A stretch of DNA of 64,000 bases from Tremella fuciformis (lineage: Eukaryota > Basidiomycota > Tremellomycetes > Tremellales > Tremellaceae). The stretch lies in contig CP136491.1 of NCBI GenBank assembly GCA_032768795.1, positions 2,978,501 to 3,042,500 on the forward strand. The letters are read 5' to 3'. Position numbers and translations under genes: made by a program. A model generated the notes under the pieces. That model saw only the letters and a list, made by a program, of their open reading frames with translations. It was not told the DNA's origin and did not search any database. Below, in pieces: positions 45,538 through 53,417 of this stretch; within the stretch, counting starts at the first letter, position 1; each line of letters opens with the position of its first letter.

Positions 45538-47105
45538 TTAGTCCTGGCTCATCGCGGGGTTGCGGATCGCCTCGAGGTCGGCCTTGACCATCTCCTCGAC
45601 AAGGCTGGGGAAGTCGACCTTCCGCTTCCAGCCGAGCAGTTTGCCGGCCTTGGTGGGGTCACCGAGCAGAAGGTCGACCTCGGTGGGACGGTAGTACTTC
45701 TCGTCGACGCGCACAAGGGTCTTGCCGGACTTGGTGCAGATACCGACCTCCTTCTCATCCTTGCCCTCCCATCTGCATGATCAGCGCGGTTCGTGAGTAT
45801 GCGTGGACATGGCTTACCGAAGAGTGACATCGACGTGCGAGAAGGCTCGCTCGACGTACTCACGCACAGGGTGGGTCTCCCCAGTAGCCAGGACAAAGTC
45901 CTCCGGGGCGTCCTGCTGGAGCATGAGCCACATGCCCTCGATGTAGTCGCGAGCATGTCCCCAGTCACGCTTGGCATCGAGGTTACCGAGGTAGAGGCAG
46001 TCTGCGTGACCAGTGGCGATCTCGGCGACGGCTCGCGAGATCTTTCGGGTGACGAAAGTTCGTCCACGACGAGGAGACTCGTGGTTGAACAAAATACCGT
46101 TGCAAGCGTACATGCCGTAGGCCTCGCGGTAGTTGACGACGATCCAGTAGGCGTACTGGGGGTCAGCACCAGATTTTGATTAATGAGGGGCGGCAACTTA
46201 CGAGCTTGGCGACACCATAGGGGGAACGGGGGTAGAAAGGGGTGGTCTCGCTCTGAGGGGTCTCAACGACCTTGCCGTACAGCTCCGAGGTGGACGCCTG
46301 GTAGAAGCGGCAGTGCTTCTCGAGACCGGCGGTACGGATGGCGTCGAGCACGCGGAGCGTGCCGAGACCATCGACATCACCGGTGTACTCGGAGAGCTCG
46401 AACGAGACCTTGACGTGGGACTGGGCGCCCAGGTTATAGATCTCGGTGGGCTGAACCTGGGAGATGATGTAGACAAGGTTGGTAGCATCCGTCAAGTCAC
46501 CATAGTGAAGAATCATCTGCAGGAATCAGCCGCTGCGCAACGGTTGGGGTCGGCCAACGCCGATCAAGGAAAACACAAGGGAGACGAAAGGGTGAGTGCA
46601 CGGCCATGCGGGGTAGTGGCAGGGTAGAAGAGCGATGTGAGACATACCTTGGGGCCTATCAAGTCAGCATGTCCCTGTGAGGCGATGGCGAGAACGCCGA
46701 GACTCACGCTCGTGCTGGTCCTTGTAAAGGTGGTGAAGACGACCGGTGTTGAAGGAAGAGCTTCGGCGAATGATACTGATGATCAGCATCGCGTCCGATC
46801 GAGAGAGCAAAGACGTTGACTGACCCGTGAACGGTGTATCCCTTGGCGAGGAGGAACTCGCAGAGGTAAGAACTGCTGATCAGCGGGCGCTCGTCGCGTG
46901 TGAGTCGTTCGACGCTTGAGCGCGTCGATCGAGACCGAGGACTCACCCATCCTGACCGGTGACACCTGGTCGTCAGCTGCTGCTCATTTGTGCTGGAGGC
47001 TGAATGCTCACCCGAGATGAGGGCGACCTTGCGCTTGCGGTACTCTTCTGGGGTGCCGTATCGCGAGGTGGAAGAGAGGGGGTTGGCTGCGGTGATCTCG
47101 GCCAT
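45538..47105 (-). CDS. GMD: GDP-mannose 4,6-dehydratase
   Basis: First enzyme of GDP-L-fucose synthesis: GDP-mannose to GDP-4-keto-6-deoxymannose, using NADP. Spliced exons give [19 protein letters not shown] (nucleotide-binding GxxGxxG), [75 protein letters not shown], the catalytic Ser/Thr-Glu in [13 protein letters not shown] and the Tyr/Lys pair in [12 protein letters not shown]. The substrate end includes [60 protein letters not shown], and the protein ends NPAMSQD. Introns in the 5' half are numerous and short; VTGQDG lies in a tiny exon. It matches the family at every motif, so GDP-mannose dehydratase is preferred over other epimerases. It begins the fucose gene group. Confidence 0.96.
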
Positions 47106-47914
47106 TGCGAAGATGTGCTTTGGGTGCGGGAGTGTGCGTGAGAATGAGAGTGCAAGAGAGTGGTGGTGGTGGTCGACGAGGAGTGCAAGTATATGAAGAG
47201 GAGGATCGGATCGGGTGGATGGATGGATGAGATAGACAGAGAGAGAGAGAGGGAGCGAGTGGGGCGGGAATATGGTGTCGTGGCGATAAGTTGAGTTGGT
47301 CTGGTGCCGATTGAGTCCAGTTGCGCCCCGCCCTTTGACCACGGAAAGGGAGGCCGGAACCTGCCCAAAAGGGTTGGTGTACCTGGAGACGAACCCTGAA
47401 ACTTACATGTCACGCGTCTTGGGAAAAAAACAACCCCATGCTTCTTAACGCCCGACTCGGGCCACTGGGACCAGGAAACCACAGGCGAGGCGGGACTTTT
47501 CCCCTGGTTCTCTACCCGACTAACTACCAGAAGCGTCCTGTACTTGCCATCTTCTCCGACTACCGCCCCCCCAATCCATACTTCAATTTCTCAGCAACAA
47601 ATCGTCGCTACACCCAATGCGATTCAAGCTCGTGTCGGTTCTCGTCCGAACCCTAATCTATCTCGCCACTCCGGATCAGTCCAGTTTTCCGAAATCTAGC
47701 CCCTGAATTTTTCGTGTCCAAGTTGCCGCCCGCCGGCTCCCCGGCTGCGCACGTCCGCCCGCTCGGGCATTGCCGAGGCCGCACAGACGCCCGATTAGCG
47801 TGGGTGTCTGACCGGAGCCCCGAGGTGGTCAATGCGTTGTATGTGTGTGTGTGTCTGTACATCTTGTGTGTTTTCTTTCATTGTCTTCGAGCTGGCTGCA
47901 GAGGACTGACGAAG
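47106..47914. promoter_or_regulatory. Divergent promoter region, GMD / fucosyltransferase-like gene
   Basis: 809 bp between outward-facing genes. Near GMD, 47195-47260 on the plus strand is GA-rich (GAGAGAGAGAGAGGGAG), giving a CT-rich leader for GMD. A CCCTGAATTTT word at 47701-47711 recurs in the other divergent region of the group at 51770-51780. TGTGTGTGTG occurs at 47842-47851. Confidence 0.5.
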
Positions 47915-51889: not shown

Positions 51890-52071
51890 AGCGTGGGATT
51901 CCGGAGGGCGGACGCGACCAGTGACATTCAGGGTCGTGACCAGACTTTATCTCACCCACCCCCACCCTTCGTCATCCCATTCCCATCCATTCCTTGCTAA
52001 CCACCACATAGTCACACCACCCTTCCGACTTCTTCTCGCTCTCCCTCACAGACACGCTTCAGTCAACTATC

Positions 52072-53417
52072 ATGGGTGGAAACGGTTCGTCGAGCAATGA
52101 GCGCGCGGCCGACAGCTAGCTGACAGCGCAGTCGTCCTCGTCACCGGTGGGACGGGCCTCGTAGGCAAAGGTATCGAATGGGTCATTGAGAACGAGCCCG
52201 TCGGGTCCAAGTTTGGCAAGTTGGAGGGTGAGAAATGGATCTTCCTCGGCAGCAAGGACGGCGATCTGAAGTGAGCTGCCGGATCCCAACCTGTTGTGTG
52301 AGCTCATCCAGCAGAGATTACCACGCGACGGAGAAGATCTTTGAGAAGTACAAACCGACTCATGTCATCCACCGTGAGTGCCAGCTGCTCTTCTCTCCCT
52401 GTCTCGGCTACGCCGATCGCGTCCAAACATCGCTTTTGTCTGCAGCCTGCTGACTCCCAGTCGCTGCTCTGGTCGGTGGTCTGTTCAAGAACATGCGCGA
52501 AAAGTCCACCATGCTCCGCGACAACCTCTTGATCAACGACAACGTCCTCGAGCTCTCCCACGTTTACAAGGTCCAGAAGCTTGTGTCGTGCCTCTCCACC
52601 TGCGTCTTCCCCGACAAGGTCGAGTACCCCTTGACCGAGGAGAAGGTCCACCTCGGCCCGCCCAACGATACCAACTTCGGATATGCCCACGGCAAGCGTC
52701 TGGTCGACGTGCAGAATCACGCCTACAACGACCAGTTCGGCGATATGTTTACCTCGATCATCCCGACCAACGTGTTCGGCCAGCACGACAACTACGTGAG
52801 CCCTCCCTCTCCTCTGCCGTCGTCTCAGTCGCTGATCTATCAGGATTTGGCCGACTCGCACGTCATCCCCGGTCTGGTGCACAAGTGTCTCCTGGCCAAG
52901 AGTGGGTGTCGGTCATAGCTTCCGCTTCTCAAATACTGATTCGCCAGAGAACGGCACTCCATTCACCATCTCCGGCACGGGCAAGCCCCTCCGGCAATTC
53001 ATCTACTCGCGTGATCTGGCCCGCCTGACCATCTGGACTCTCCGAAACTACACTGAGATCGACCCCATCATCCTCAGCCCGGGAGAGAACGATGAGATCT
53101 CCATCAAGGAAGTCGGCGATGCCATTGTCAACGCGGTCGGATTCGAAGGCGAAGTCACGGTGGGTCCGTCGTTTCTCTCCGAGGCATGTAGCTGATGGAC
53201 AGTGGGACACGTCCAAGTCGGACGGCCAGTTCCGCAAACCCGCCAGCAACGCCAAGCTGCAGAAGCTCATCGGCGGCTACGAGTTTGTGCCATTCGAGGT
53301 TGCTTTGAAGGAGAGCGTCGACTGGTTCCTGGAGAACTACGAGTGCGTCTCTGTGTCCGTCTTTCTCGGCAGAGCTGGGCTGACGCATATAGCACCGCCA
53401 GGACTGGACCTCATTAG
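52072..53417 (+). CDS. GER1: GDP-L-fucose synthase (3,5-epimerase/4-reductase)
   Basis: Converts GDP-4-keto-6-deoxymannose to GDP-L-fucose with NADPH. Exon 1 codes MGGN and is joined by a 47-nt intron to [19 protein letters not shown], the Rossmann nucleotide site. Then [40 protein letters not shown], the substrate Ser/Cys segment [11 protein letters not shown], the catalytic Tyr/Lys in [61 protein letters not shown] and the C-terminal [20 protein letters not shown]. The TAG at 53415-53417 closes the last short exon (TARTGPH). At least seven exons with introns of about 45-70 nt. This is the standard partner of GMD, and with the gene between them completes cytosolic GDP-fucose supply. Confidence 0.95.

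Follow-up and report, generated by a model that had tools for sequence, protein, structure and literature searches.

A putative GDP-fucose supply-and-use gene cluster in Tremella fuciformis

The window studied here is a stretch of 64,000 nucleotides of the Tremella fuciformis genome (28.1 Mb in 11 contigs), corresponding to positions 2978501-3042500 of contig CP136491.1, hereafter C2. Four neighbouring genes in this window code for a GDP-mannose 4,6-dehydratase (GMD), a putative fucosyltransferase of the O-FucT type (FT), a nucleotide-sugar transporter of the SLC35C1/TPT type (NST) and a GDP-L-fucose synthase (GMER). They are best read as a cluster for the supply and use of GDP-fucose, in which the acceptor of FT is most likely an extracellular polysaccharide or a cell-surface glycan; we put the probability of this reading at about 0.72. 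The GDP-fucose part of the interpretation is well supported by sequence identity, fold and the presence of a single source, and the fact that all four genes are found together points to a fucose-bearing sugar coat at the surface.

Splice models on both strands place the four genes, all of them multi-exon, between positions 45538 and 53417 in the order GMD (minus), FT (plus), NST (minus) and GMER (plus) (Table 1). The outer limits are stop codons, that of GMD ending at 45538 on the minus strand and that of GMER at 53417 on the plus strand. The intergenic gaps measure 809 (GMD/FT), 172 (FT/NST) and 566 bases (NST/GMER); no further genes were seen in them, short open reading frames (ORFs) in the gaps not being tested one by one. 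The original prediction of four neighbours with no other gene between them is thus confirmed, and its limits were right to the base. The genes make up two divergent pairs, GMD with FT and NST with GMER, the middle genes FT and NST being convergent. Counting the window, the genome has one GMD, one GMER, at least five FT-like and at least four NST-like loci. With these lower bounds and an assumed total of 9,500 genes, a rough product, made with no simulation, gives odds of about 6e-10 for such a run of four neighbours under random gene order; two Saitozyma genomes of 28-30 Mb have 9,890 and 10,312 genes (PMC7147457; here and below, statements from cited papers refer to the sections of those papers that were covered). 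It is very unlikely that the neighbourhood arose by chance.

The assignment of GMD and GMER as the two enzymes of the GDP-fucose pathway, which the original prediction had made, is supported by matches to curated families and solved structures. GMD reaches 600.7 bits with the NCBIfam equivalog model TIGR01472 (cut-off 415), 1e-152 with Pfam PF16363 and 552 bits with the human GMD structure 5in4, the last two scores coming from a 375-amino-acid version of the model that uses an alternative NAGNAG acceptor. GMER matches the human GDP-L-fucose synthase structure 4e5y over its full length (residues 3-322, 400 bits) and PF01370 at 4.9e-42; it falls below the cut-off of the NCBIfam Fcl equivalog NF047922 (186.7 bits vs 500), which belongs to a library for bacteria and archaea. 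Splice signals and homology are the sole basis of both gene models. Whole-genome searches with each protein recovered the window gene exon by exon as the one locus of its kind, and beyond the window gave a single further match, on contig C5, at 26-29% identity. A genome search with PF16363 gave 22 matches, and the two strongest of those outside the window presumably correspond to a UDP-glucuronate decarboxylase (C5) and a UDP-glucose 4-epimerase (C2:863807) rather than to second GMDs. For the fucose pyrophosphorylase family PF07959 there was one genome match, at 22.5 bits, below the cut-off of 34 (the kinase family was not searched), and a salvage route to GDP-fucose appears unlikely. Since GMD and GMER were found only here and PF07959 stayed under its cut-off, the locus is probably the sole source of GDP-fucose in this genome.

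The assignment of FT relies on profile, motif and fold. The protein passes the gathering score of PF10250 O-FucT (39.8 bits vs 31.5), has a hydrophobic stretch at residues 26-44 and a second, marginal one at 123-141, and carries the motif HIRRGDF at residues 380-386. All eight aligned sequences retain HIRRxDF as well as an Asp and a Ser-Thr pair, with R382/R383, D463, S479 and T480 of FT invariant and the POFUT2 numbering assigned by motif; such Arg, Asp, Ser and Thr residues have been tied to catalysis and GDP-fucose binding in O-FucTs (PMC10481521). In the predicted structure, the C-terminal nucleotide-binding domain has a GT-B fold whose best matches are POFUT2, FUT8, POFUT1, NodZ and AtFUT1. 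POFUT2 heads the VIA-align comparison; FUT8 follows within 1 Z, NodZ has a very similar Z and plant FUT1 one of 8.2, and none of the listed structures that are not GDP-fucose transferases approaches these values. The relatives of FT include Mycena and Roridomyces proteins. Genome searches for GT10 (PF00852) and FUT8 (PF19745) were empty, but no control genome gave a match either; GT37 and GT11 were outside the genome-wide search. Fold and conserved residues thus support the predicted type of enzyme, a GDP-fucose-type transferase, with GDP-fucose as its putative donor.

NST matches PF03151 TPT at 49.7 bits (cut-off 30). With a lenient threshold it shows ten hydrophobic segments, of which two abut; TPT-type carriers have roughly ten helices. 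Both results support the predicted SLC35C1-like transporter. NST is 43-48% identical to basidiomycete proteins labelled GDP-fucose transporter, the labels having been given by similarity. A protein search returned 873 matches among 7,998 scored, and a quick tree was built from 123 rows, namely the best 120 of the 873 and three paralogues from the same genome. In this tree NST groups with two Saitozyma proteins and the paralogue NST_D (94, an open fork), and this group sits on the agaric and pucciniomycete side of the tree (80); another paralogue, NST_3, groups with Kwoniella, Naematelia and Kockovaella (99), to whose proteins it is 71-74% identical. Because of long branches, the placement of NST is provisional. 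In a GDP-mannose carrier an Arg contacts the mannose, and SLC35C1 has a Thr at the same position (PMC13342644). GDP-fucose is the putative substrate of NST.

The two middle genes are very probably transcribed, since a public assembly contains their proteins in spliced form. These are P0001 (516 amino acids) and P0002 (375 amino acids) of a public protein set, and spliced alignment to the window reproduces both letter for letter once eight introns of FT and four of NST are removed. Their source is labelled lgn, which we take to be an assembly of raw reads, and the longest contig is 3,393 bases for both; this equal length suggests that they lie on a single contig. As genomic DNA would retain introns, the contig is probably cDNA, one contig joining the two convergent transcripts. 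By hand arithmetic, the 3,591 bases from the start of FT to that of NST, less 740 of intron, leave 2,851.

The window is not the only place where such genes occur. A genome search with the FT protein found four paralogues, FT_A on C2 and FT_B, FT_C and FT_D on contig C7, which are 35-40% identical in an alignment of models and all keep HIRRxDF and a Ser-Thr-Met motif; the PF10250 profile search of the genome gave one sub-threshold match (FT_A, 24 bits) and missed FT itself. On C7, a 581-amino-acid GT90 (CAP10-type) protein lies between FT_B and FT_C (PF05686, 41.1 bits, cut-off 24), and the transporter gene NST_D follows FT_D. Neither GMD nor GMER was found in this C7 cluster (about 70.8-94.3 kb) when the genome was searched with each protein. 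The genome thus has two FT-and-NST clusters and one source of GDP-fucose. With no GMD or GMER detected outside the window and four FT paralogues located elsewhere, the window cluster probably supplies all of them. The proposed dedicated fucosylation module is weakened by the four paralogues, three of which have another transporter close by. The locus appears to combine the GDP-fucose supply with one transferase out of five rather than to be a closed module. Capsule-type genes are present as well, with four CAP59-type (PF11735) loci and, for GT90 (PF05686), three loci over the cut-off and one on C7, as expected for a glucuronoxylomannan (GXM) gene set.

A motif of 16 bases, oriented alike in the two divergent promoters, is given with its positions in Table 1. 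Its consensus has three genome matches at no more than one mismatch, against none for a reversed control; two of them are the sites of origin, and the third (C2:78467, one mismatch, about 1.4 kb from the start of FT_A) adds little, as about two one-mismatch matches are expected by chance according to a hand estimate. This third site was rejected as an FT_A promoter element, since it lies about 14 bases before the ATG of another minus-strand ORF. The exact 11-base word common to both promoters was likewise set aside, at least as many occurring in 38 of 200 shuffles. Of the eight CCCTGAA words in the window, four fall within the 1,375 bases of the two divergent promoters; two more stand directly before FT_A. 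When the FT_A region is considered along with the two promoters, 2 of 500 shuffles had any 7-mer at least twice in all three, the regions and the threshold having been chosen post hoc; no 8-mer is shared in this way. CCCTGAA is accordingly a clue to possible joint regulation, though one noticed only on inspecting the data.

In the proposed scheme, GMD and GMER would convert cytosolic GDP-mannose to GDP-L-fucose, and NST would carry it into the lumen of the Golgi, its presumed location, or of the endoplasmic reticulum. FT, held by a type II membrane anchor and presumably facing the lumen, would then pass fucose to an acceptor of the secretory pathway, predicted to be most likely an extracellular polysaccharide or a cell-surface glycan. 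The members of each divergent pair would share a single promoter region. Since no other copies were found, GMD and GMER should supply the four FT paralogues too, three of which stand beside a GT90 gene and a second transporter. That the acceptor belongs to a capsule or the cell surface is plausible, since this genome has CAP59-type and GT90 genes and a GXM-like polysaccharide with fucose has been reported from Tremella (PMC8355462). A bolder version of this scheme has the window genes, as a co-regulated cluster, and the C7 cluster, with its three sister FTs, relative of the CAP10-type xylosyltransferase and sister NST, jointly build a fucosylated GXM-type exopolysaccharide; we hold it to be tentative and rather doubtful.

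The literature gives a partial setting for these proposals. GDP-fucose synthesis has been predicted for most Basidiomycota except the smuts (PMC8092308), so that the earlier remark that GDP-fucose pathways are patchy in fungi fits fungi overall but not this phylum. Tremella and Cyphobasidium genomes from metagenomes carry a putative GDP-L-fucose synthase (PMC8355462). Fungal fucose genes have been mapped and O-FucT subfamilies described (PMC10481521), and at the time of that paper no fungal fucose transporter had experimental verification. In its main text, neither 'gene cluster' nor 'tremell' occurs anywhere. A fungal cluster of GMD, GMER, NST and a transferase is not named in the titles and abstract openings covered, a scope that leaves subscription papers and supplements largely outside, and the literature examined, as far as its covered sections go, names no tested GDP-fucose transporter or fucosyltransferase in a tremellomycete.

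Several observations weigh against the GDP-fucose cluster. FT resembles PF10250 only distantly (37-40 bits), its predicted structure has low overall confidence (mean pLDDT 45.8, with residues 32-349 below 50), and a sequence search of the PDB found no relative, the best match being an RNA polymerase subunit at E 0.71; no PDB relative was found for NST either. The NST tree has long branches and weak forks, and cryptococcal papers describe the sequence of such transporters as no reliable guide to substrate (PMC5773217, PMC5790919). When only the two window promoters are compared, the observed two shared 7-mers are equalled in 22 of 500 shuffles, and the four C7 promoter regions have neither CCCTGAA nor a good match to the 16-base motif (5-7 mismatches of 16). 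Finally, just 2 of 184 Tremellales glycans were fucosylated in one survey (PMC8492980), and the presence of fucose in this fungus is a prediction from its genes.

Several scenarios may account for the same four genes. One possibility is that GDP-fucose is indeed supplied, but that FT and its paralogues O-fucosylate Ser/Thr residues of proteins and not a polysaccharide. The Pfam name of PF10250, 'GDP-fucose protein O-fucosyltransferase', and the top rank of POFUT2 in the structural comparison would agree with this, yet POFUT2 is tied there with FUT8, and the glycan-acting FUT8 and NodZ fit the same domain at nearly equal Z. Changed substrates have moreover been suggested for fungal O-FucT subfamilies (PMC10481521), and an FT paralogue adjoins a GT90 gene; protein O-fucosylation seems rather unlikely. 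Alternatively, FT, NST or both could use another nucleotide sugar, such as GDP-mannose or UDP-xylose, within a looser capsule-glycan cluster. The difficulty of reading NST specificity from sequence leaves room for this, as does the presence in the second cluster of GT90, a family that includes xylosyltransferases (PMC7147457). A figure legend on proteoliposomes with cryptococcal Gmt1 lists peaks of GDP-mannose, GDP-glucose and GDP-fucose, so several GDP-sugars may share one carrier. Nevertheless, among the listed structures only GDP-fucose transferases come near FT in Z, FT and NST share a locus with the sole GMD and GMER genes detected, and cryptococcal UDP-xylose carriers are reportedly nearest to carriers of UDP-galactofuranose and UDP-arabinofuranose, whereas the relatives of NST are named GDP-fucose transporter, by similarity. 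We consider a different donor improbable.

It could also be argued that the four genes are adjacent by chance or through an old gene order, with no joint function, since gene order in eukaryotes is partly arbitrary and the 7-mers shared by the two window promoters recur in shuffles. The odds calculated for random order, and the scarcity of shuffles with a comparable 7-mer once the FT_A promoter is included, post hoc as that choice was, make this scenario very improbable indeed. The preferred interpretation is still that of a cluster supplying and using GDP-fucose, with a surface glycan as the likely acceptor.

Table 1 Features of the GDP-fucose locus (window positions) and its paralogues (contig positions)
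Feature	Position	Strand	Remarks
GMD, GDP-mannose 4,6-dehydratase	45538..47105	-	GT-AG splice model and homology
Divergent promoter GMD/FT	47106..47914	.	CCCTGAATTTTTCGTG at 47701-47716; CCCTGAA at 47394; candidate elements
FT, O-FucT-type putative fucosyltransferase	47915..49875	+	516 aa (amino acids); N-terminal membrane anchor; spliced model = P0001; later ATG at 47969 possible
FT introns	48250-48294, 48327-48377, 48750-48794, 49181-49228, 49257-49305, 49445-49490, 49569-49622, 49694-49765	+	49445-49490 is GC-AG
NST, SLC35C1/TPT-type nucleotide-sugar transporter	50048..51505	-	375 aa; spliced model = P0002; upstream ATG at 51523 possible
NST introns	51435-51481, 51209-51395, 50751-50798, 50465-50512	-	
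Divergent promoter NST/GMER	51506..52071	.	CCCTGAATTTTCCGCG at 51770-51785; CCCTGAA at 51927 (minus); candidate elements
GMER, GDP-L-fucose synthase (eukaryote type)	52072..53417	+	326 aa; 8 exons; splice signals and homology
GMER exons	52072-52084, 52132-52270, 52315-52373, 52461-52795, 52844-52901, 52948-53159, 53203-53342, 53393-53417	+	
FT_A	C2 ~75.4-77.1 kb		FT paralogue, ~75 kb from contig start
FT_B	C7 ~70.8-72.5 kb		FT paralogue; introns of merely 32-34 bases in the model
FT_C	C7 ~75.1-76.8 kb		FT paralogue
FT_D	C7 ~90.8-92.6 kb		FT paralogue
NST_D	C7 ~93.1-94.3 kb		Transporter paralogue after FT_D; C-terminal end uncertain

The surroundings of these loci are mixed. Upstream of the four genes, an ORF at 44832-45143 matches FoP_duplication at 25.5 bits (cut-off 24.6); downstream of them, the ORF at 53947-54222 scores below threshold with a saccharopine dehydrogenase domain (18.8 bits, cut-off 25.1), and a 755-amino-acid open frame on the minus strand at 55690-57957 has no Pfam match at E 0.01. 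Both the FT_A region (C2, 75 kb) and the C7 cluster (70-94 kb) lie less than 100 kb from a contig end. Ten more ORF pieces from this part of C7 comprise two MFS, one WSC (11 copies) plus DUF1996, two DUF1996, one SDR, one sub-threshold SGNH and three unmatched. A 1,728-amino-acid open frame at C7:78294-83477 matches WSC 11 times and has a DUF1996 domain; more DUF1996 ORFs lie near it, at 88.8-90.1 kb. At C2 863.8-866.8 kb, a gene that presumably codes for a UDP-glucose 4-epimerase-like protein lies about 2 kb from a CAP59-type gene, possibly a further case of a sugar-nucleotide enzyme gene next to a transferase gene.

If GDP-fucose has a single source, the loss of one gene, GMD or GMER, should abolish all de novo fucose, and the five FT genes could then be matched to individual linkages. 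More generally, the locus hints that fungal genomes may group transferases with genes for nucleotide-sugar supply, a pattern that would aid the finding of other glycan pathways. Should the tentative joint role of both clusters in a GXM-type exopolysaccharide hold, it would provide a genetically defined fucosylation pathway, fed from a single GDP-fucose source, for the coat of a tremellomycete.

The locus can be compared with several known systems. The GXM-type capsule and exopolysaccharide machinery of Tremellomycetes is represented in this genome by CAP59-type and GT90 loci, whereas the four window genes are of neither type and are linked to GXM by conjecture. NST shares the TPT domain and about ten hydrophobic segments with the SLC35C1-type GDP-fucose transporters, but its transport of GDP-fucose is putative. 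Like the fungal O-FucT subfamilies, FT exceeds the PF10250 cut-off and conserves the Arg of HIRR, the Asp, the Ser and the Thr; those subfamilies lie in secondary-metabolite or housekeeping neighbourhoods, and one with GMD, GMER and NST goes unmentioned in the sections of PMC10481521 covered. As in the de novo GDP-fucose pathway of animals and fungi, both enzymes are full-length and their best matches are the solved human structures; here, by contrast, the two genes lie within 8 kb of DNA, with the transporter and the transferase between them. The parts are of known kinds, and the clustering of all four appears to be what is unusual.

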